Positions 43,932-61,441 of a DNA stretch of 64,000 nt are shown here, one piece after another. The stretch spans positions 558,001 through 622,000 of the forward strand of contig NC_079490.1 in assembly GCF_020520425.1 (NCBI RefSeq). Direction: 5' to 3'. The stretch is from Spinacia oleracea (taxonomy: Eukaryota > Streptophyta > Magnoliopsida > Caryophyllales > Amaranthaceae). Positions within the stretch are counted from its first letter, which is position 1; every line of letters begins with the position of its first letter. Under the pieces are notes generated by a model that was given only the letters and a program-made list of their open reading frames with translations, ran no database searches and was not told the origin of the DNA. A program made the translations under genes and the position numbers.

Positions 43932-45065
43932 CTAAACTTTGTGTTTCTTGCTTTTCTTTTCAGTCGATTTTGCCGAACCCTTATCTTTCTTTTCTTTCAA
44001 ACCCTTCACTCCTTTCTTCACCTTTGCCACCTCCTTCTCACCCTTCTTCCTCTTCTTACCAACAATTTCATCACCACCCACTTCAACATCCATCACCTTC
44101 TTCTTCTTCCTCTCCTCCTCCTCCTCCACATCATCGACTTCGCTCCCAGATTCATCTCCCCCAACCATCCCACCAGACTCAACACTATCCATATACCTCA
44201 CCTCATGAATCCTCCCCTTCTTCTTACTCACCTTCTTTTCTTTCTCCTTCTTCTCTTTCTTTTTTGAAACGACCGCCTTCTCTTCTCCATTACTAATCAA
44301 CCCACTAATCTTCAACCCTAACTCAGGCACTTTCTGATAAACCGGCAGCGCCAAGGACTCAGAAAATTTCAAATGAAACGCCCTCACATTGCCCCACTTC
44401 TTAGGCACAACCTCGGCAACCCCACTCACAGCAGCCGCCACATTAGCCACAATCTCATCCCGCCCCATCGAACCCTTTGCCACTTTAATCACACTACAAG
44501 TCCCAGTACTCAAATACAACATCGCCGAACTACAAACCCTCTCAATCTGCTCCTTCCAATTACCCCTTCCCAACTCAATCGGCACAGGAATCTTCTTCTT
44601 TCGATAGAACTGCTTTCCAATTGCATTCGGCAATAATGGGATAATCCTCTTATCAGCAAAAAACATGTCAAATGAATCGCAAAGCTTCCTCTTCTGCTCA
44701 AACGCTTTGTAATCCTTTTTCAATTTCGAGAGCTTTATCACCTTAGAAACTGGAACCCCGCCTTCTTCGACCTTTTGTTTAGCGGTTTTGGAAACGCTGT
44801 CATGAACAAAGAGGCAAAACTCAGCGGTTTCCGGGGTGTAAATAGCGTTTGGAAGAGCAATTTTGTGGGCGTTAGTGCGATTTTTGGGGGGGATTTTGTT
44901 TAGGGTTAAGACTAAGTAGAGGAATTCATCGGAAGGGAGAAGTTGAGATTTTTGGGAATCGGTATTTGCGGATTTCCATTTTAGCAGAGCATCAACTGCT
45001 TTTCCAATTGCTAGGGTTGAGACCTTTGAGCTTAGTGTTGATGGCGGCGGCGCTGCGTACTCCAT
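43932..45065 (-). CDS. Ribosomal L1 domain-containing protein (RSL1D1/Utp30-like)
   Basis: Single open frame of 377 aa on the minus strand, ATG at 45065. About residues 15-250 form a ribosomal L1 domain: AVDALLKWKSANTDSQKSQL, then FLYLVLTLNKIP, LPNAIYTPETAEFCLFVHDS, KVIKLSKLKKDYKAFEQKRK, DMFFADKRIIPLLPNAIGKQ, FYRKKKIPVPIEL and NVRAFHLKFSESLALPVYQ. The last ~120 residues are a highly charged Lys/Glu tail with an acidic patch (ESGSEVDDVEEEEERKKKKV), as in nucleolar proteins. The family (human RSL1D1, yeast Utp30) acts in the nucleolus in pre-rRNA processing and small-subunit assembly. It is intronless and intact. The open frames on the opposite strand are shadows of the Lys/Glu codons. Confidence 0.9.
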   Translation of the reverse strand: MEYAAPPPSTLSSKVSTLAIGKAVDALLKWKSANTDSQKSQLLPSDEFLYLVLTLNKIPPKNRTNAHKIALPNAIYTPETAEFCLFVHDSVSKTAKQKVEEGGVPVSKVIKLSKLKKDYKAFEQKRKLCDSFDMFFADKRIIPLLPNAIGKQFYRKKKIPVPIELGRGNWKEQIERVCSSAMLYLSTGTCSVIKVAKGSMGRDEIVANVAAAVSGVAEVVPKKWGNVRAFHLKFSESLALPVYQKVPELGLKISGLISNGEEKAVVSKKKEKKEKEKKVSKKKGRIHEVRYMDSVESGGMVGGDESGSEVDDVEEEEERKKKKVMDVEVGGDEIVGKKRKKGEKEVAKVKKGVKGLKEKKDKGSAKSTEKKSKKHKV

Positions 45066-45261
45066 TGCTGTTTTTGAGATGCTGAGATTTGGGAGAAATC
45101 GAGGAGAGAGAAGATGAGGTTACTGGGAAGTTGTTTTGAGGGTTTAAGTTGGGGTTTTTGATTGCTGAGTGTGGTATGGATCCGACCCGGTTTCTAGTTC
45201 TTTATATGTGGGTCCAACGCAAGAATTATGTGACCTAGCTATTGACCTTTGTGATCGATTT
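45066..45261. promoter_or_regulatory. Promoter region of the RSL1D1-like gene
   Basis: About 200 bases between the ATG and the TIR element. No clear TATA box, as is common in housekeeping plant genes. Anything further upstream is transposon DNA. Confidence 0.35.
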
Positions 45262-47610: not shown

Positions 47611-48769
47611 TCTCCCACTTGTCCTTAGGGACAAGTGTGCATTTCCTAATTCCTTTGTCGCTCGATGCTTTCTCTTTAACATAAGGTAAGAGTTGTCATC
47701 CTTATTATGTCCAGAGGTGTTTCTCGGTTTCAGATTCAACTGATCAAATAGACAGATAATCATAGCCTATGATTCATCTGAGCACGGCCATGCATTTTAC
47801 AGTTTCTAACTCTCCGAGTGGCCTTGTACAACTTTCGGCATCTCGTCCCGATTTATGGGAGGACAATCCCAATCTTGCGATCTTGAGATTAGACTTCGTT
47901 TGATAGGTGATTACCTGAGCGTTGCCTTTATAGCCTCCTTTTACGGTGCGACGGTTGACAACGTCAAAGTAAGCAGTTCTCAAACAAGTAATCTCAAATC
48001 ACTCAGGTATTGAGGATTAGTGTCTAATAATTTTAATGAAATTTACTTATGATAGATTTTCATCTCTTACAGTAAAGTTTCATAGGTATGTCCGATACTA
48101 GTATTCCCAAAGTAAGTATCTATGCAAATGATTACGACATTGCCATGTCAACATAGTTCAAGAAACCGAACTTGTAACGCCCCGACCTCTAATTCAATTA
48201 TTAAAGCATAATTAGCAGCGGAATTAACCTAATTGGTCGGGACATTACCTGCCGTAACTTCCTTTTTGGAAATTACAAGGAAAACATCAATCATAAGCCA
48301 TTAAATACTCCAATATATATATATATATATAATAATCCTTTATATTATCAAAATAAAAGTACATAACTTACTAAAAGTCTCTAATTAAAACTATTAAAGC
48401 TTTAAGCATAAACTAGGTGAATATTATTAACGTGAAATTCCTCGCCACTACTCGTGTCCATCGTCCTCATCAGTACCTAAAACAGAAAACAAAACAGTGA
48501 GCCGAAGACTCAGTAACAACTACCCTAGCAACGTAAATTCATTTCAACTCATTTTATTTAATAACACAGGGAGAATAGAATAAGTAAAACATTTAATAAA
48601 ACATCATATTTAATTCATTTATCAACTTTGCAATTTAACATGCTAGTTGTCGTCAAGTACGAACCGTGAAGGATTTCTCCACTGGGTCTGGGCCCTGAGC
48701 TTGGGCTCATCATCGTAACATGGGCCTGGGCCCTGAGCCTGGGCTCATAAACCATGGGAGCCTAGGCTC

Positions 48770-51700
48770 TGTAATCCCCCGTAAATTTATAAATTTTATT
48801 AATATATTTTTAACGTATATTATTTATATTTAAATAGAACTTATGAATTTTAGTAATAAATATATAATTAACGTATATTCATTTTATTTTAAGTACGTTC
48901 TAAATATTTAACGATTTTTGAACTTTATTATATTTATATATTTAATGTATATTTAATTTTATTTAAATATGTTCGAAATATTTTAACGGTTTGTGCAATC
49001 AAAAATGATTTTAGAATTTTACGTGAAAAGAATTCGAATTACGAAAACGCGTTCGATTGAATTTGGATAAACAATCCTAACTATTTTTTTGGATTCGATT
49101 AACCTCAATTCTAGTCCTAGCCCAAGTTGACAAAGCCCAAATAAGTAAACCCATACCCCAATCCATGTTCTAATCTCACATAAACAACTCTCCCCTCCTT
49201 GCTTCAATTTCACGTGAAACCAAAAACACCTAAACCCTCAAACTTTGCTTCCCCTTCACGTGAACTCTCAAGACCTTGCTCTCCTTCACGCCGTTCTCCT
49301 TGCTGCAGCCGCTCACACCGCCAGACACTCCTGCACGTCACCGGAATCTTGTCGACGCCGGTAACTCCCACCCTTCTTCTTCGTCCTTTCCTCCTCCTTC
49401 ATTGCGGTATTGCTTTTCTTTCCTTTTAATCGTTGTTGTTTGCCCAGCCACACAACCACCGCGAGTTTCCTCGCCGCCAGCAACCGCCGCGAACCTCACC
49501 GTCGCTGGACCGCCGACCTTGCACGGTAGTCCTCTCTCCTTTGTTCTCTTTCCCTTCTTGATGTGTCGTCCTCCCTTATTCGTTGTCCTCTTGCTTCTCT
49601 CTCACTCGTTTTTGTTGGATGCGGCAGCCACACACAACCGCCTGTGCACCGCCGTGCCTCAACTCGCCGCCGATCTGCTGCCGCGCCTGTGCTCCGGCCA
49701 GCCTCTTCCCTTCTCCTTCTTGGTTAATCCCTGGAAACCCCTACGTGAATTAAATAATTTAAATTATGTTTTAATTAACTTTTAATAATTTAAATTATGT
49801 TCTTGAATTTAATTTATATGTTTTTATGATCTAATTAGAATTTTCAGATTTGCATATATGTTTAAATGATGAATTTAATAACGTTTTAATAATTTAAATT
49901 ACGTTTCTTGAATTTAAATAATAAGCTTTATGATTTAATTATGAATTTCAGAATTATAGGTTTGCATAATTGAGTTATTAATTTCAGATTATCTAATTAC
50001 ATTGAAATATTGATTTGTGATTGTTTAAAGTATGAAATTCAAAGTTTTTATGATTGTAAATCATGGTAGGACGGGTATGGATTATTAAATTTATTGTTTC
50101 GAGGTACTAGGAACATAGATTGGCCTTGGTGAAGTTTTTAAATGAATTATATTGCTGAAAATTTAAAGTACGATGCTTGCAAAAAGTTTTCAACGAATTT
50201 CAATCACTAGTTCAATAATTATGATGCTAGGAAATCAAATGTTTAGGTTTCGATATTGGGGAAGGTTCTAAATATGTTTAGGATGCAATTAGAATGCTTT
50301 ATGATGGTTGCCAATGATTAGAAATTGATTGGGATTATTTGTTGGTTGTTTTAGGCGGAGAATTCTCTCTAGGCGACTTTTGAAAGTGTTAAAGTGGCCT
50401 ATCAGTTTGTTTACACAAGGTACGTACATACCTGTGTGCTTGGAATGAGTGTGATTTGTTGAAACCATATTGAAATGATTCATGAACTTCGTTATGTCGA
50501 AATGATTAAGGAACTTGGTTATGTTGAAATTGTTGATGAACTAGGTTATGTTGAAAGTGAATGTTTAATATTGTTGGATGGACATGTTAAGCATATATAT
50601 TTCATTATGAGAATTATAGCATGTTGGTATGGATGATTGATGCGAACATGTTGGTTGGGAACATTAGATTATTATTTATATATATTGATTCAGATCGATT
50701 GTTTATTGTTCCCTTTTAGCTTTTCACTACTTTACAAGGGCCGAGGACCTTGTTTAGTAAGTTGAAACCTTATACCCATATAGAGGGGTTGATCAGTATT
50801 AAAGGAAAGGTTGAATTAATTGGAATAAGTCTTGTGTGACATCTCTGTGATCACTTGCTTAATTCAAAGATAAAAGAAGTTGTGTTTACTTGTTGAATAT
50901 AATATTTATGTTTGATGAGTCATAACCAAGTATTAAAAGTTAAGTCATGTAAAGTGAACATGAGTAGCAATAGCTTTAGACTGTGCACGTCTAAAGTGTC
51001 GGACAATCAGGAGTTGGGGTCATGGGTAGCCTATGGCTTTTTCTGGGGCCGGATTGATCACCGGTTCTATTTTTATTTAAAAGTCCCTCGATATCGCAGG
51101 TCATTGGGGTTTACGGAGTCGCGCCCGTACCTCGTCTTCCTTAGTGAAGAAGAAGAAGTTTCTAGTAGACAACTCAGTCCATTGACTATTTCAATTAAAA
51201 TAATGTTAATGATACAAAGGTCTAGTTCAGTCAAATATAGTTTTCAAGTCAATATATCTTGATTATCCTTGCTTATGTTTTATTTAGTATCATGTTAGGA
51301 TTGTTCATTTAATATAGAATCATGTTAGGACTATTATTGATTTAGTATGTAGTACTCAGCTTTGCTGATTACGTGCTTTTGCTTGTGCATGTTGATCATG
51401 GCTATGCTTTATTGATCCTGTGATGACCCAATCTTTGGTGAGCAGTCTCTAAGGATCAATAAGCATTGTCCATCTGCAGGTTTGAAGATGTTGCATCATT
51501 GGGATCGGGAATAGAGAGCTTGTATTTAGTTTTGTTTTGATAAGTTGACTTGGGTTTGTTTAATCGGACTTTAAACTTGTCGTACTATTTATATTTCCTT
51601 ATTTTCGTTGGTTGATTTTTGAGACTAAACCTGTAATCGATTATTTATAAACCTAAAGTTAGTTTTATGTTTTCCGCTGCAAAATTCTGAATAAGCCGTT

Positions 51701-51792
51701 ACGTTTTCACACGGGCGATAACGCCCTGATAATTCTCTATGTTTTATATTAAAAGGTTATTTTAGAAAAGAGAGAATTGTCGGGGTGTTACA
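48770..51792 (+). repeat. 5' LTR of the GAG-only element
   Basis: 3,023 bp, TG...CA. It holds an AT-rich 5' part, a CT/GC-rich block (49199-49785) that stays open for 169 codons of Ser/Pro-rich sequence, and CACGTGAA motifs at 49211 and 49257. Near the 3' end TTATTTATAAACC (about 51640-51652) could be the promoter TATA box. The open stretches inside it are not treated as genes. Confidence 0.92.
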
Positions 51793-51793
51793 A

Positions 51794-51812
51794 AGTGGTA
51801 TCTAGAAGCTAA
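51794..51812 (+). other. Primer-binding site region of the GAG-only element
   Basis: Directly after the 5' LTR comes AAGTGGTATCTAGAAGC, close to the TGGTATCAGAGC of initiator-Met tRNA complements used by most plant Ty3/gypsy elements, with small changes. The site is visible; its use is inferred. Confidence 0.6.
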
Positions 51813-52553
51813 GGTTTTATTTTAATAAATTTTTAGGCGCCTAACTAGTTAGTTATTTAAAATAAATTTCTTAAAAATCGAGCTTCTACGGATTATAGTG
51901 TTCAAAATTGGTACTTTTTTTTTGGGGGGCCGATTTCCTTTTATCTTGTTTGAAAGTATATGATATTTCTTATTTAAGTTCGAAATCAAATTATTATTCA
52001 AGTTAAAGTGATACTTTTGACATTTTATTTTTCTTATTATTTATTATTCAAAAAAAAAAAAAAATGAGTACATTTTTTTAAAGAAGTTCAATTTTTTTTA
52101 GTTGTTTCAAGAGTTAGAATTCGTTATTTAGGAAATATAATTTTTTTTTGAATTAATAACTTTATTTTTTTATTTATTCGCTATGCATTTCCTTAATTTA
52201 TTTTACTTTATTTATTTTATATTTTTATTTATGTTATTATTCTATGTTATAATTTTATTAGATTATCGTCCTTTTACCTTGTTATTTAAATTATTTCAAT
52301 GCTTTAGCTTATGAGAGATGGGTAGTATAAGAAGGGCATATAAGGTAGAATTATATGTGCATTAGTGGCTAGTCAACGCTAGCATTAGAAATTGATTGTT
52401 ATGTACGTGCGTGTGCTAATTGTTTAAGTGTTACATTTACATGTGCATAAAGAATTGTTTGATTCCACCAAACTTATTGATCACTGAACCTTGTTTATGT
52501 TTTGGCTGGAAAATCGTTAGTGAGACCTTGAATTTTTTTATTTCAGGGATAAA

Positions 52554-53171
52554 ATGTTTCTTTCCAAGTATACCAATATAGGATCCTTCGAGAAACTTGA
52601 TATAGAAACCCCAGATATTTATGTGAAGAAAATTGTGTTTGGATGTGAATATTATGCTAAGGTTCAAGGGCAACCTATCTTAATGAGAAAGGATATCATA
52701 GCAGCCACTATCATTAATTGCTTACCTAACAAATTTCCGTACCTAGAACTCAAGGAAAAGTTTAAAGACATGCATTCTGATAATGGAACTCCAAACTTGG
52801 TTAAGTATGGAACTTGGGATGGTAGATGGAAATATGATTCAGAAATTCTGACCACCATTATTGAAGCAGCAGAAAGTGGATTTAGAGACGGTAAAATCGT
52901 AGGGAGTCATGTTGGGGATTCAGTTACAGAAGAACCTATGGGAATAAGTGTAAATAATGACCTAGAGGAAAATGATGTAGCTGTGGAGAATGAGAATGTA
53001 GGTGTTGAGGCAGAGAATCCTAACCTAGTGGCCCATGAGCCAACCATTGAAATTTCTAGTGACTCAGATGTAGAGCTCGAAAGTGAACACATGGCAAATG
53101 AGCCTAATCAAGATGAAGATATGGAAGAAGATGAAGACCCTGAGGAAGAATTTGATGATCTTGAGATCTAA
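52554..53171 (+). CDS. Extra ORF before gag in the GAG-only element, 205 aa
   Basis: A 205-residue frame starting MFLSKYTNIGSFEKLDIETP. The first ~125 residues look globular and mixed (VFGCEYYAKVQGQPILMRKD, IINCLPNKFPYLELKEKF). The last ~80 are very acidic (SSDSDVELESEH, then DEDMEEDEDPEEEFDDLEI). I recognise no domain, and gag, protease and RT motifs are absent. An ORF upstream of gag in the sense direction is unusual for this class. It could be a captured host piece, a regulator of the element, or chance; the length and organised composition argue against chance. Confidence 0.6.
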   Translation: MFLSKYTNIGSFEKLDIETPDIYVKKIVFGCEYYAKVQGQPILMRKDIIAATIINCLPNKFPYLELKEKFKDMHSDNGTPNLVKYGTWDGRWKYDSEILTTIIEAAESGFRDGKIVGSHVGDSVTEEPMGISVNNDLEENDVAVENENVGVEAENPNLVAHEPTIEISSDSDVELESEHMANEPNQDEDMEEDEDPEEEFDDLEI

Positions 53172-53840
53172 ATTTCACTCCGCAAGTTTCAGGAGCAATG
53201 GGTAGGCAAGAGGCCACAAATATTTTGAAGTCATAAATAGTTAATTAACTCTTTTATGTTTTAAAGAATAAGTAGCAAAGCTACAACAGTTTAAGGTTAA
53301 AGTTTATTGAAGTTTGAAATGTTCTTTATTATTTTCAAGGATGTAATAAACCTCTATGGAGTTAGCAATAAAAGTTAAAGTTTTCAAGGAATTGTCCTTT
53401 ATTCTATTTTGAGGATTCCATAATACTCCAACCTCTAGGTAGTACGTCATGGATTAATTGTTTGCATACTCAATGTGAATTGTGGATCAATTTAATTGCC
53501 ACAATAATATTAAATAATTTGAGTACATAAAGGAAGTGAGGGCCATTCTAGACCCTCATGACCAATATGATTCAAAATGTTATGCCTTATGTGCAGTGTG
53601 GGAATGTCTTTCGTGAATTATTGAGTATGATTATTTTTTTTAATGATTATTGCATCTTGTAGACGATCGTTGCACATTTGTAAACGATTGTCGTGCCTTC
53701 GTAAATGATGTGTATTAATGTGAACATTGTTGGTTGAGGCGATCTTTATGGCCAATTCAAGTATTAAATTGTATGGGATAATGTATAGGTGATGTTTCAA
53801 ACCTAAAGTAGAGTATACTAATTGCAGGTCGCGTTCTAGA

Positions 53841-54980
53841 ATGGCCAACAACAATGATCTAGCTGCTGCGATTCGCCTCTTGGCGGAAAAGCTAACCCAG
53901 GAGAGAACTGAGCACCCCGATTCTGCAGGGGAAATGTTTGAAAGACTTTCTAAGGTTAAGCCACCGTATTTCAAGGGACAAGCAGACCCTACCTTCCTGG
54001 AAAACTGGATTAGGGAGTTTGAGAAACTATTTGAGGCTGTGAGTTGCCCTGGGAGTATGAGAGTAAGTCAAGCTGTCCTATATCTAAAAGATGAAGCCGA
54101 TTTGTGGTGGAAAGAAAATGGAAATAGACTAAATGCTGTTGAGGGATTCAATTGGGATTCATTCATAGTTGCCTTAAGGGGGAAGTTTTATCCTCCTTTT
54201 ATGAGAAAGCAGAAAGCGCAGGAGTTTATCAACCTTAGGATGGGGAATATGACTATTGCTGAATACTATAGCAAGTTTATAGCTTTATCGAGGTTTGCAC
54301 CTGAGGTGGTAGCTACTGAGGAGCTAAAGGCTCAAAGGTTTGAGCAAGGGCTGACTGATGAAATTCAATTGGGATTAGGTGGAGAAACCTTTACTTCCTT
54401 AGACATAGTGTATGGGAGAGCTGCTCATATTTATGGGCTACAGTCTAGAAGGGAAAAGAAAACTGTGGTAATTGGGGAAAAGAGAAAAGATTTTAATGCT
54501 GGGGGTAACCAAGAAAACTTTAAAAGGAATAGAAACGGAAATGGGAATGGAAATGGAAATTTCCAAGGAGGAAACAATCAGGGGCACCACAACAACTCGA
54601 ACCCATCTGAGAGAGTGCATCATTGCAAGATGTGCAGTAACAATCACCCTGGTAAGAACTGCAAAGGAGAATTAGTGACCTGCAACTATTGTCAAAAAAG
54701 GGGACATAGGGAGTATGAGTGCTTCACTAAGCACAGAAAGGAACAAAATAGTAATGGAGGTGGAAACCAAGTGAGGTATAACCAGTCTGGAGGTCAAAAT
54801 TCAAAGCCTGGAGGGGCACAAAACAACCAAGAGAACTATAATAAGCCTGCAAATGATAACAACAACCCGAATAAGGCTCCAGGAAAGTTGTACATGATGA
54901 ATCAGAATGAGGATGAACGATCTGCCGATATAGATTCTGGTACTTTTCTATTAACTCTGCGCAAGTTAAGCATTATTTAA
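53841..54980 (+). CDS. gag: gag of the GAG-only element, 379 aa
   Basis: Codes a Ty3/gypsy capsid protein. The retrotransposon-gag domain covers roughly residues 30-200 (FLENWIREFEKLFEAV, AVLYLKDEADLWWKENG, FYPPFMRKQKAQEFINLRMG, IAEYYSKFIALSRFAPEV, RFEQGL). A Gly/Asn-rich linker follows, then two CCHC zinc knuckles (CKMCSNNHPGKNC and CNYCQKRGHREYEC) that would bind the element's RNA. The frame ends shortly after a KLYMMNQ-type stretch that normally lies before protease. No pol follows before the polypurine tract. Family known role: particle formation. Confidence 0.88.
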   Translation: MANNNDLAAAIRLLAEKLTQERTEHPDSAGEMFERLSKVKPPYFKGQADPTFLENWIREFEKLFEAVSCPGSMRVSQAVLYLKDEADLWWKENGNRLNAVEGFNWDSFIVALRGKFYPPFMRKQKAQEFINLRMGNMTIAEYYSKFIALSRFAPEVVATEELKAQRFEQGLTDEIQLGLGGETFTSLDIVYGRAAHIYGLQSRREKKTVVIGEKRKDFNAGGNQENFKRNRNGNGNGNGNFQGGNNQGHHNNSNPSERVHHCKMCSNNHPGKNCKGELVTCNYCQKRGHREYECFTKHRKEQNSNGGGNQVRYNQSGGQNSKPGGAQNNQENYNKPANDNNNPNKAPGKLYMMNQNEDERSADIDSGTFLLTLRKLSII

Positions 54981-55135
54981 TTCGTGGCGACTTGTCCTTT
55001 TGTTTCGTCGTCTGTTGTGAAAAGTTTAAAGTTAGTAGTTTTAGTAAAATAGGAATTTTGAGAATAGAATTCGTCGAAAGAGAATTTTGGTTAGCTATTC
55101 CCTAAGGTGAGTTACGAGGGCGTAACTCGTTTTCT

Positions 55136-55423
55136 TTAAGGGGGGTAGAATGCGATAGAAATTCGCGCTTTTTACTTATTTTATGGTATTTTTATGAATT
55201 TTATGCTTATTTTTTAGCAACCTTTAGAAGTTGATGCAAAGCAAATAGACTCTCCGCATAAGAAAATGTGTTCATTAGTAACACAAACAGCTTTGAGTTG
55301 GCAAAAGAGTGCACATAGGTGGCACAAGTATTTCTCTAGTAAGAATAAGTTAAAAGCTTTTGGGAAAATGTGGGAAATTTCGTGTCAAGTTTCGGGACGA
55401 AACTTCTTTTAAGAGGGGTAGAT
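55136..55423 (+). other. Two polypurine tracts before the 3' LTR of the GAG-only element
   Basis: TTTAAGGGGGGTAGAATG at about 55136-55153 and TTTTAAGAGGGGTAGA at about 55407-55422, directly before the 3' LTR. The second is in the right place to prime plus-strand synthesis. The first is a stronger tract ~270 bp upstream. Confidence 0.6.
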
Positions 55424-58400
55424 TGTAATCCCCCGTAAATTTATAAATTTTATTAATATATTTTTAACGTATATTATTTATATTTAAATAGAACTTATGA
55501 ATTTTAGTAATAAATATATAATTAACGTATATTCATTTTATTTTAAGTACGTTCTAAATATTTAACGATTTTTGAACTTTATTATATTTATATATTTAAT
55601 GTATATTTAATTTTATTTAAATATGTTCGAAATATTTTAACGGTTTGTGCAATCAAAAATGATTTTAGAATTTTACGTGAAAAGAATTCGAATTACGAAA
55701 ACGCGTTCGATTGAATTTGGATAAACAATCCTAACTATTTTTTTGGATTCGATTAACCTCAATTCTAGTCCTAGCCCAAGTTGACAAAGCCCAAATAAGT
55801 AAACCCATACCCCAATCCATGTTCTAATCTCACATAAACAACTCTCCCCTCCTTGCTTCAATTTCACGTGAAACCAAAAACACCTAAACCCTCAAACTTT
55901 GCTTCCCCTTCACGTGAACTCTCAAGACCTTGCTCTCCTTCACGCCGTTCTCCTTGCTGCAGCCGCTCACACCGCCAGACACTCCTGCACGTCACCGGAA
56001 TCTTGTCGACGCCGGTAACTCCCACCCTTCTTCTTCGTCCTTTCCTCCTCCTTCATTGCGGTATTGCTTTTCTTTCCTTTTAATCGTTGTTGTTTGCCCA
56101 GCCACACAACCACCGCGAGTTTCCTCGCCGCCAGCAACCGCCGCGAACCTCACCGTCGCTGGACCGCCGACCTTGCACGGTAGTCCTCTCTCCTTTGTTC
56201 TCTTTCCCTTCTTGATGTGTCGTCCTCCCTTATTCGTTGTCCTCTTGCTTCTCTCTCACTCGTTTTTGTTGGATGCGGCAGCCACACACAACCGCCTGTG
56301 CACCGCCGTGCCTCAACTCGCCGCCGATCTGCTGCCGCGCCTGTGCTCCGGCCAGCCTCTTCCCTTCTCCTTCTTGGTTAATCCCTGGAAACCCCTACGT
56401 GAATTAAATAATTTAAATTATGTTTTAATTAACTTTTAATAATTTAAATTATGTTCTTGAATTTAATTTATATGTTTTTATGATCTAATTAGAATTTTCA
56501 GATTTGCATATATGTTTAAATGATGAATTTAATAACGTTTTAATAATTTAAATTACGTTTCTTGAATTTAAATAATAAGCTTTATGATTTAATTATGAAT
56601 TTCAGAATTATAGGTTTGCATAATTGAGTTATTAATTTCAGATTATCTAATTACATTGAAATATTGATTTGTGATTGTTTAAAGTATGAAATTCAAAGTT
56701 TTTATGATTGTAAATCATGGTAGGACGGGTATGGATTATTAAATTTATTGTTTCGAGGTACTAGGAACATAGATTGGCCTTGGTGAAGTTTTTAAATGAA
56801 TTATATTGCTGAAAATTTAAAGTACGATGCTTGCAAAAAGTTTTCAACGAATTTCAATCACTAGTTCAATAATTATGATGCTAGGAAATCAAATGTTTAG
56901 GTTTCGATATTGGGGAAGGTTCTAAATATGTTTAGGATGCAATTAGAATGCTTTATGATGGTTGCCAATGATTAGAAATTGATTGGGATTATTTGTTGGT
57001 TGTTTTAGGCGGAGAATTCTCTCTAGGCGACTTTTGAAAGTGTTAAAGTGGCCTATCAGTTTGTTTACACAAGGTACGTACATACCTGTGTGCTTGGAAT
57101 GAGTGTGATTTGTTGAAACCATATTGAAATGATTCATGAACTTCGTTATGTCGAAATGATTAAGGAACTTGGTTATGTTGAAATTGTTGATGAACTAGGT
57201 TATGTTGAAAGTGAATGTTTAATATTGTTGGATGGACATGTTAAGCATATATATTTCATTATGAGAATTATAGCATGTTGGTATGGATGATTGATGCGAA
57301 CATGTTGGTTGGGAACATTAGATTATTATTTATATATATTGATTCAGATCGATTGTTTATTGTTCCCTTTTAGCTTTTCACTACTTTACAAGGGCCGAGG
57401 ACCTTGTTTAGTAAGTTGAAACCTTATACCCATATAGAGGGGTTGATCAGTATTAAAGGAAAGGTTGAATTAATTGGAATAAGTCTTGTGTGACATCTCT
57501 GTGATCACTTGCTTAATTCAAAGATAAAAGAAGTTGTGTTTACTTGTTGAATATAATATTTATGTTTGATGAGTCATAACCAAGTATTAAAAGTTAAGTC
57601 ATGTAAAGTGAACATGAGTAGCAATAGCTTTAGACTGTGCACGTCTAAAGTGTCGGACAATCAGGAGTTGGGGTCATGGGTAGCCTATGGCTTTTTCTGG
57701 GGCCGGATTGATCACCGGTTCTATTTTTATTTAAAAGTCCCTCGATATCGCAGGTCATTGGGGTTTACGGAGTCGCGCCCGTACCTCGTCTTCCTTAGTG
57801 AAGAAGAAGAAGTTTCTAGTAGACAACTCAGTCCATTGACTATTTCAATTAAAATAATGTTAATGATACAAAGGTCTAGTTCAGTCAAATATAGTTTTCA
57901 AGTCAATATATCTTGATTATCCTTGCTTATGTTTTATTTAGTATCATGTTAGGATTGTTCATTTAATATAGAATCATGTTAGGACTATTATTGATTTAGT
58001 ATGTAGTACTCAGCTTTGCTGATTACGTGCTTTTGCTTGTGCATGTTGATCATGGCTATGCTTTATTGATCCTGTGATGACCCAATCTTTGGTGAGCAGT
58101 CTCTAAGGATCAATAAGCATTGTCCATCTGCAGGTTTGAAGATGTTGCATCATTGGGATCGGGAATAGAGAGCTTGTATTTAGTTTTGTTTTGATAAGTT
58201 GACTTGGGTTTGTTTAATCGGACTTTAAACTTGTCGTACTATTTATATTTCCTTATTTTCGTTGGTTGATTTTTGAGACTAAACCTGTAATCGATTATTT
58301 ATAAACCTAAAGTTAGTTTTATGTTTTCCGCTGCAAAATTCTGAATAAGCCGTTACGTTTTCACACGGGCGATAACGCCCTGATAATTCTCTATGTTTTA

Positions 58401-58446
58401 TATTAAAAGGTTATTTTAGAAAAGAGAGAATTGTCGGGGTGTTACA
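55424..58446 (+). repeat. 3' LTR of the GAG-only element
   Basis: 3,023 bp, same length and, where read, the same sequence as the 5' LTR (constant offset 6,654). The identity over 3 kb points to very recent insertion. Confidence 0.92.
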
Positions 58447-61441
58447 GGCTCGTAATCCATGGGTGGACAGGTGTCCGTGGTGCATGCATAACCGGTAGAT
58501 AGGAAGATGGTAGTTTATATACCGCCAGACAAACTATGTCTTTCACTTTCATTTATCATGTTTTATGTATTTTTACTAAGCCTTGGCTTGTATTTCAGTT
58601 GAAATAACATAACTCTTTTAGATCATAAAACATCATTTTGATCCTGGGATCAATAAAATATCATTTCCTTCATAGCATTTCATAAACATCATTTTATGAG
58701 AAAACTCAATCAAATCATATTATAAGAAACAATTCAATCAAATCATATTTCATCCCACAATCCTTAAAACACATCAAAACATTTAATTCATAAATTCAAT
58801 CATAACGTCATATTTTCATAAATCATATTTATAAGGGGATTGCGGGTACTAGCGATAGCCGTTACCTCACTTCCACGATTTTGCTAAGGGTTTTCCTTGG
58901 TTCGTTCGTCCTGAGCTCCAAGTCCAGTTTCCAAAAGCCCAAATGAGTGTAGCCCAATTTAATTTGTGGTTTTTAAGGATAATATAACCAAAAACCAAAA
59001 ATTGGTTTTGGTTTTCTGGGAGCAGGACCCGAAACAGGGGAGGGGGAGAAGGGACGCACGAGGAGGAGGAAAGGGAGGAGGGAGGAGGGAAAGGTGGCGG
59101 CTGGGCTCGGTGGTCTGATGCGACGGTGATGGTGGGCGGTGGTTCGCGGCGGAGGAGCAGCTTGAGAGAGGAGGAGGAACACGATTTTGGGTGAGAAGCA
59201 GGGGAGGTTCGGGGGGGTGTTTCAGGGAGTTCTGGGCGGCGGCAAGGTGGCTTTTGGGGCGGTAGTTGATTAGCAAGGTGGGGATGGTGGTTGGAGGTGG
59301 TGGTGTGCGGCGTGGTGTTGGTGCGGTGGAGCGAAAGAGAGGAAATAAGGGAGAGTAGGGGAGGTGGGTCGCGAAGGAGGTGAGAGCAGGGGGAGGTACG
59401 GTGGGTGTGCGGTGGTGCTGGAGGGAGACGGTGGTCAAGGTGGTTGTTGGACGGAGGTGGCAGTAGTGGTGGCTGGTGGTTGCAGTGGTGTTTGCGGTGG
59501 TGGTTCGAATTAAGGAAGAACAAGGGAATGATTTTTTTCTCAGTTTGTGAATTGATTTTGGTAATGAAATTGATCAGAAATTGAAGGAATTTGTAAGTTT
59601 TGTGAAGGATTCTAGAAGAGGAAGGCCTTGGGGCTCAAGAAAATGTATGGGGACTGATTTGAGGGAAGGTGGGATATGCGTGGGGAGCAAGGCGGTAAAG
59701 TAGATAAATAAATTTTCCTTTTTTTTTAATATTATTTTATTAATTTCATAATATTTGGCAAAAATTCAGAAATTGTAATTAATTTTCGGAAATTGCTTAA
59801 AATAATTCCTTAAAAAAAAAATTAGCGTTAACGAAAAAAATAAATTAATTTCAGTTTATAAATTCGTCGTTTAAAATAAATCGTGAAAACGATTAAAATA
59901 ACGAAATTCGATTATTCGTAATTTAATTTAAAACGAAATTAAGTTAATAAATATTTTTAATTTTAATAAATCGAGTTTAAAATTTCGGGGTATTACAGAA
60001 CTACTAGTCATCTTGCATTCTAGTCGTCTAACGTTTTCTATGCGTCCATCTTTATAGAAAACTCCGACCAGGGACCTTTTTCAACTTTTGACATTCAAGT
60101 TCACTTGATAGACATTTCTTAGTCACAGGACTGGTCCTGACAGTCTATCTTGAATATATCGTCAAATTGAAGGGACTCATCATTTAATACTAAACCAAGA
60201 TTAAATGGAATATGAAAATACATTTCATATATGATAAATGTTCAACCCCAATGTTTTACAACCATGGGCCTCGAACCCATCTTTAAAACAATTAGTGAAA
60301 TTTCAAAACTATGCTTGATTTCCAGTGCCACAATGTGAGTGTTGTTTCTCACTTGTTGCATAGGTTTAGTTATCATGCTTTGCCAATCTTGATATCCTTT
60401 TCATCGAACAATATTCGAGATATGATGATAAGATCTTTTGAGTTTGTTTATTATGTGATCTAGTCTTTCTTACTACAATAGTGGTTCTACGCATTTCTCA
60501 ATGAAGAACCATCAAGTTAGCAGACGGTTTTCTTGCTTCAAGAGTGGTTATACGCATTTTTCAATGAAGAACCATCAAGCCAGCAGATAGGTGACCTACC
60601 CAAGTTCAGTGAAGAACTTTAAACAACCCTGTTTTATTGCTTCTTAGGCAATAATTACTTTTACTTCAACTGTATAAGTTGCTAGTGATGCTTTGGTTGG
60701 ATTTACTTATCCAAGCAATTCACAGATATGTGGAAGACTTTCCAGCTGTATCTTAGAACATAGAAATTAATATTTAATTTCCCACGCAACAACTCATGGT
60801 CTCCGATCCATGTTGCCATTTCAAAACACGATGCTCTATAGCTCGTCCTTGCCAATGGTTAACTCCAAAGGGATCTTGCTTGATCCTTTACCAGTGTTTA
60901 TGCGTGTAGCATCAATATTTAGCATATCTTTATTTCCTTGAATCAATAACTATTCCTATGTACCTTTTCAAGTACCATAAGTATTCTTGATCTCAATCTA
61001 GTTGATTTTCACTTAGATCAATAGAGATTGGTATATGTTCGTCATGCCTAAAGTCATACGATACGTTTTTGGCGATCCTCATATTATATCATACATGATA
61101 AATTCTTTTGCAGAATAATTCCCAATTGAATTCTATTCATGTAACTTAAGCTCATTCTAGTTTCAGTAGATACTAAAACCAGTTAAATTCTTTGACATAT
61201 AATATAGGTTAAGAATCTCACTTAGATACTTTGATGTTTATCTTAGTAAATGCTTATACATAGTTCAAACATTCATTACTTAGATTTATTCATATGGATC
61301 GAATATCTCCAATGGAGTCTTTCGTGTTTGATTTAGTAAATACCATTACTTAATCCAAAACAATATCATAAGATCTTTGTAAATAGATCTTAATACCCAG
61401 TATGTACTAAGTTTCGCCTTGGTCCATCATTGGTCCATCAT

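Follow-up and report, generated by a model that had tools for sequence, protein, structure and literature searches.

The window analyzed here, a 64,000-nucleotide stretch of Spinacia oleracea DNA (contig NC_079490.1, positions 558,001 to 622,000 of the forward strand), contains a long terminal repeat (LTR) retrotransposon at positions 48770-58446 that carries, in sense and upstream of gag, an additional open reading frame (ORF) of 205 codons, here called ORF0 (Table 1). An initial annotation, made from the letters alone, had described a young gag-only element, and the outline stood up well to analysis. The two LTRs show zero differences along exactly 3,023 nt and account for 62.5% of the element, and a clean 5-bp target-site duplication (TSD, GGCTC) flanks them. 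Gag matches Pfam Retrotrans_gag (1.4e-13) and Ty3_capsid (5.1e-8), has two Cys/His knuckles identified by eye (the first being C-x2-C-x3-H-x4-C), and its frame stops where the protease begins in relatives. No ATG frame of at least 80 codons lies between gag and the 3′ LTR, and pol is absent. The presence of two LTRs, a TSD, a primer-binding site (PBS), a polypurine tract (PPT), and an intact gag, together with the absence of pol, supports the assignment as a young, gag-only, TR-GAG-like element. Since no difference separates the LTRs, the insertion would date back no more than a few tens of thousands of years at 1.3e-8 substitutions per site per year, a commonly used rate. We regard the element as a recent copy of a large non-autonomous chromovirus-type Ty3/gypsy family, probably of the Tekay clade; a 5-bp TSD is a trait of Tekay/Del chromoviruses.

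ORF0 is probably a conserved accessory gene of this pol-less family, judging from how its copies vary. In an alignment of 30 loci, variation in ORF0 followed codon phase (counts of 11, 7, and 33, p = 1e-5), as did variation in gag (8, 12, and 43, p = 2.6e-8, at 23 loci after seven with a ghost or truncated gag were dropped); neither the leader before ORF0 (p = 0.52) nor the spacer between ORF0 and gag (p = 0.48) had such a phase. The ratio of nonsynonymous to synonymous differences per site (pN/pS) was 0.152 for ORF0 and 0.145 for gag (over 828 nt) in the 17 loci that remained once 13 broken, truncated, or near-duplicate ones had been removed. Indels in the 30 loci were multiples of three in 9/9 cases in ORF0, 1/62 in the spacer, 45/211 in the leader, and 26/88 in gag with ghosts included; a shared event was counted once per copy, and the loci had been chosen through ORF0 matches, with broken frames less likely to be included. 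Over all rows, 75 of 76 ORF0 indels were multiples of three, mostly the same few insertions, and the one departure was a private deletion of 1 nt in L095.

A larger set of 60 distinct ORF0 sequences (69 rows) gave a pN/pS of 0.22 at a synonymous divergence (pS) of 0.10, with 0.14 in the N-terminal 117 codons and 0.31 in the acidic tail. Third positions accounted for 56 of the 97 variable sites shared by at least two copies (p = 7e-7) and for 26 of the 87 singletons, a pattern to be expected where active lineages are under selection and dead copies drift. With stops and gaps set aside, no more than one of the 69 rows deviated at 102 of the 117 N-terminal positions and at 51 of the 88 tail positions. 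We also hand-picked 16 copies (L092-L107) through gag, LTR, or degenerate-pol matches, excluding places in the first ORF0 list. ORF0 was present in all 16 of these ORF0-blind copies and open over the stretch examined in 11, including L093 and L094, which are identical to each other and in which it ends a few codons early; pN/pS among the 15 distinct copies was 0.29, and 0.16 in the N-terminal 117 codons. Collectively, the variation among copies shows ORF0 to behave as a protein-coding gene under purifying selection, of a strength about that on gag.

The initial annotation had named an accessory protein as one possibility, to be supported by many copies that purifying selection preserves; this support was obtained, and the contrary outcomes that it named (no other copy keeping the ORF, neutral substitutions) did not appear. 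In a protein search, the best 150 of 3,326 candidates were 92-100% identical to ORF0, 141 without an in-frame stop and 9 with one, and a second ORF0 query gave 138 without and 12 with a stop among its 150 listed matches; both lists are ranked by similarity, favor intact copies, and cannot reveal frameshifts. It is very improbable that the stretch is instead kept as RNA, for packaging, dimerization, or leader structure. Its location after the PBS and before gag, the usual place of packaging signals, would suit such a role, as would its retention in ghost copies, which lack intact gag and pol. Nevertheless, the third-position bias and a new in-frame ATG in one copy (L071) favor a protein, and the leader and spacer, equally suitable sites, vary without phase.

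At 205 codons, ORF0 compares with 124 for the longest ATG frame obtained when the surrounding 2,048 nt were mononucleotide-shuffled 2,000 times. In some copies the frame extends upstream, up to 275 codons; we judged this extension accidental because other copies have stops there. The strongly acidic tail was borne out: the last 88 residues contain 33 D/E and zero K/R, and over the first 117 the two classes are in balance, at 16 to 16. A "globular front", also proposed at first, gained nothing from single-sequence AlphaFold2 (mean pLDDT of 37). The tail includes TIEISSDSD, the core of which, IEISSD, is present in all 69 rows in some frame and presumably resembles a SUMO-interacting motif.

ORF0 had no match in Pfam or NCBIfam and no credible match in the PDB; a PDB look-alike, Crov588 (E 1.3e-8 over the whole chain), was rejected, its repeat units having i-Evalues of at least 17. 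The best hits in PHROGs had E values of 0.1 and 3 only, phages and plasmids gave no match, and viral contigs gave six pattern matches and no relative. A protein search of the source genome for a host homologue was saturated by element copies, and an alternative-codon motif search came back empty. The idea of a captured host gene, raised in the initial annotation, therefore drew no support from these searches. In its recent form, with ORF0 as a passenger that has not yet decayed, we consider it quite improbable: ORF0 is without similarity to other retroelement proteins in Pfam, and the available texts of PMC13317346 and PMC3726574 give precedents for capture by plant LTR elements, yet the copies have diverged (pS of 0.10) while keeping a pN/pS of 0.22, and the variation that these copies show in spacer and leader has no phase. 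An ancient host-gene origin may still apply.

How ORF0 and gag could each be expressed is suggested by splice-like sites, which point to separate spliced messages for the two. AAG/GTACGT in the LTR is the sole match to the two donor patterns scanned across 48770-53860, and acceptor-like sites precede both start codons (Table 1). Among the exceptions at the ORF0 acceptor, the AG is shifted by one base in three copies and absent in one (L071). Other acceptor-like sites in the same stretch reach an equal pyrimidine-content score. Transcription would start within the long 5′ LTR; the full-length RNA would serve as the element's genome, and splicing of the LTR donor to either the ORF0 acceptor or the gag acceptor would yield the separate messages.

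Table 1. Features of the retrotransposon, in window coordinates (a slash marks the putative splice boundary).
Feature	Position	Strand	Remarks
TSD, left	48765..48769	.	GGCTC
5′ LTR	48770..51792	+	3,023 nt, TGTAAT...TTACA; identical to 3′ LTR
Acceptor-like TTTTAG/GCGGAG in LTR (also in 3′ LTR)	50352..50354	+	AG in 12/12 aligned matches, both LTRs of some copies included
Donor-like AAG/GTACGT in LTR (also in 3′ LTR)	50418..50421	+	AG/GTACGT in 14/14 aligned matches, both LTRs of some copies included
Leader	51793..52553	+	T-rich (T 45%, GC 25%), without coding phase
PBS TGGTATCTAGAAGC	51796..51809	+	starts three bases inward of the 5′ LTR end
Acceptor-like TTTTTTTATTTCAG	52544..52546	+	7 nt before ORF0 ATG; CAG in 56/60 aligned matches
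ORF0	52554..53171	+	205 aa, acidic tail with TIEISSDSD; sense, upstream of gag
Spacer ORF0-gag	53172..53840	+	without coding phase
Acceptor-like TACTAATTGCAG	53825..53827	+	13 nt before gag ATG; AG in 34/34 aligned matches
gag	53841..54980	+	379 aa; frame broken at protease start
Inner PPT-like motif	55131..55152	+	arranged like PPTa of sugar beet Bongo3, as described in the available text of PMC3605345
PPT adjoining 3′ LTR	55411..55423	+	
3′ LTR	55424..58446	+	3,023 nt
TSD, right	58447..58451	.	GGCTC

The primer site, which we take to be a variant of the initiator-Met-tRNA type, deviates in the window from the canonical Met-tRNA complement. Among 33 copies, TGGTATCAGAGC occurred in 7 and a variant in 24 (the window's copy included), and no site was found in 2. 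An Rfam scan of 44-64 kb of the window gave no match at gathering score. Outside the element, a minus-strand frame of 395 codons at 43932-45119 contains a Ribosomal_L1 domain (Pfam 3.3e-46) and is probably a host gene.

The family is large. The junction of PPT and LTR start, allowing at most three mismatches, was found at 1,419 places in the genome, some of which may belong to other families, and a reversed control gave 0. In the copies read, ORF0 is kept, gag is often kept, and pol is deleted or degenerate. The frames of all 108 scored gag relatives are no longer than 446 aa, which leaves none of them continuing into a whole pol. The degenerate pol of copy L069 matches 40 scored places at 88-100%, and the 150 best matches of a 53-aa pol piece are all in frames no longer than 250 aa, giving no intact pol of this lineage. 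Among 150 protease (RVP_2) loci, the gags adjoining the first 30 were 28-43% identical to that of the element where matched (27/30), and at these 30 the element's DNA had no matching part at E 1e-5. On contig C1, none of seven long-frame RVP_2 places lay 3-5 kb upstream of an exact junction, a weak test made by eye with 100 of the 1,419 junctions listed, and the 1.3-kb stretch upstream of one 1,514-aa frame (L108) held no ORF0 (n = 1, with an approximate gag start). A full-length partner sharing the LTR ends, which the initial annotation had expected, was not among the matches listed.

Some copies are evenly spaced at 6.4-7.3 kb on one strand (G000 C5:76476428-76490762, C3:72680368-72694221, and C5:18704786-18720010), which suggests tandem arrays in the form of LTR-body-LTR-body chains. 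On the minus strand of G000 C4:28427995-28429566, two ORF0 matches lie within 1.6 kb, perhaps a duplicated ORF0 in one element.

A second young subfamily, the "ghost" sister, has neither gag nor pol intact. In L069 (the same locus as L032), identity to the window is 89-95% across leader, ORF0, and spacer; gag is split into five matching pieces in three frames, the degenerate pol is also broken (37-69% per piece against a gag-pol frame adjoining an RVP_2 match), and no plus-strand frame after ORF0 exceeds 98 codons. Its LTRs differ at 1 of 1,612 nt compared. ORF0 of the ghost subfamily is open and identical at four loci (L032-L035), and in ten copies with pol remnants, gag being at least partly read in four only, the pN/pS of ORF0 was 0.20. 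Another ghost copy, at L071:4001 and upstream, is one of a near-identical group by protein; it lacks the usual ATG and has a different one, in frame, a few codons upstream. A role for ORF0 as a cofactor that helps Gag in packaging or assembly, in place of a nuclear or anti-silencing one, is conceivable but on the unlikely side: in the pol-less type the two genes are both kept, under similar constraint (0.152 and 0.145), yet ORF0 is intact also in copies without an intact gag, though Gag could act there in trans.

Compared module by module (LTR, leader, ORF0, spacer, gag), copies show sharp shifts in divergence. For L031 against L032 it is 7.4% over the LTR part, 1.6% over ORF0, and 0% over the spacer; the leaders of the window and L013 are 7.5% apart and their gag sequences 0%. 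Such shifts are most readily read as recombination between subfamilies. The simplest account of the moved alleles would be that genomes of different subfamilies are co-packaged and that template switching shuffles their modules.

A number of observations weigh against ORF0 as a conserved accessory gene, and in particular against a strict need for it, besides the bias of the ranked lists and the lack of a listed partner. Alleles have moved between gag-bearing and ghost backbones, so that the pN/pS of 0.20 is no proof of selection while ghost. In the ORF0-blind set, ORF0 is broken in 5 of 16 copies, the acidic tail has a pN/pS of 0.62, the third-position excess is modest (35/77, p = 0.018), and the sole private indel is a frame-breaking 1-nt deletion (L095); the in-frame indels come down to few independent events, with insertions of 3 and 24 nt shared within the 16 copies. 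L071 has lost the acceptor AG and its old ATG and has a new in-frame ATG of its own. Moreover, an allele with a stop at codon 38 of ORF0 occurs at 15 exact places in the genome; the unbroken form was found at 79 places on one flanking haplotype, the other haplotype being uncounted, so that the two figures give no ratio. Carriers of the stop (L021, L025, L029, L018-L020, and L102) represent at least two ORF0 length types, and L021 differs by 0 to 0.7% per module from L025 and L029, which lie elsewhere in the genome. Near-identity of this order implies that an ORF0-null element spread, and ORF0 can thus be absent in cis, at least for some time.

These null copies and the mosaic alleles would fit an ORF0 that acts only in trans, with ghost and null copies as passengers and the low pN/pS contributed by a minority of supplier copies. 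We see this as a real possibility, if not quite a probable one; the stop-free matches (141/150 and 138/150), in lists that favor intact copies, stand against it.

Returning to ORF0 as a conserved accessory gene, we can only guess at its role. Reverse transcriptase and integrase would be supplied by another, intact family. ORF0 itself might be a nuclear acidic regulatory protein that keeps the family expressed, for example against silencing, and is shared in trans, a guess that we put forward tentatively and hold to be rather doubtful. The fuller version, a family-specific trans-acting anti-silencing or chromatin factor with a SUMO-binding-like acidic tail, shared by a consortium of enzyme-less retrotransposons and selected even after the loss of gag and pol, is decidedly unlikely to be right in all its parts and leans on analogy.

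Plant LTR elements commonly carry extra ORFs, the worth of which is uncertain. A survey of plant LTR elements asked whether such ORFs function and, in its available text, counted only those of at least 250 codons (PMC6317226), a cut below which the 205-codon ORF0 falls. In the family described here, the non-coding DNA flanking ORF0 and the broken gag-pol of sister elements provide built-in controls, against which a small protein looks selected. What a non-autonomous element still has to encode thereby becomes a testable question: among the copies read, pol is either missing or broken, gag may be lost, and ORF0 is more often retained. If the anti-silencing reading were true, ORF0, not gag or pol, would be the last gene that such a parasite gives up.

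Several known systems share parts of this arrangement, as far as the available texts describe them. TR-GAG elements have LTRs and gag, lack pol and borrow it, and one is mobile in Arabidopsis ddm1 (PMC8704663); our element likewise has LTRs and gag and would take its pol from elsewhere, but it differs in a second conserved gene, ORF0, and in having a sister subfamily that keeps no intact gag or pol. Sugar beet and spinach belong to the same plant family. Bongo3/SCHMIDT of sugar beet, a Tekay-clade element, has LTRs of ~2.6 kb, an inner PPT at the gag-pol end plus a functional PPT, and a 5-bp target repeat (PMC3605345). The spinach element shares the two PPTs, the long LTRs, and the 5-bp repeat; by contrast, the gag-pol of Bongo3 is intact, and the available description mentions no ORF upstream of gag. 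In einkorn wheat, the pair RLG_Quinta/RLG_Cereba comprises a non-autonomous, gag-bearing family and the autonomous partner that moves it (PMC11302176). Our element is similarly non-autonomous and gag-bearing; unlike it, the wheat pair is centromeric, has a CR-domain integrase and a known partner, and no extra ORF is mentioned in the available text. VANC, encoded by VANDAL elements, acts on related copies and is reported to direct hypomethylation (PMC13317346); since it belongs to a DNA transposon, it offers ORF0 a possible analogy only.

The closest parallel lies within the Tekay clade, where a sense 5′ additional ORF (aORF) has been published for sunflower Tekay group 2 and for the grass elements Tekay, Sb7, and Retrosat-2 (PMC11728184). 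The initial annotation had suggested that the protein might be undescribed. This stood for the protein itself, no report of ORF0 in spinach or its relatives having been found in the open-licence PMC literature, but not for the kind of ORF. The sunflower aORF encodes 402 aa, is proline-rich with a basic nuclear signal, and occurs in 500 of 523 similar elements; in the same study, the sunflower proteins had no similarity in amino-acid sequence to those of grasses (PMC11728184), hence such ORFs may arise repeatedly. Like the sunflower aORF, ORF0 is a 5′ ORF of a chromovirus-type element, without a known domain, with a biased composition, and kept in most copies. Unlike it, going by the published description, ORF0 is set apart by length and composition, with 205 aa and an acidic tail, and resides in pol-less elements. 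What ORF0 adds to the published sense 5′ Tekay ORFs is a conserved acidic 5′ ORF in elements that lack pol.

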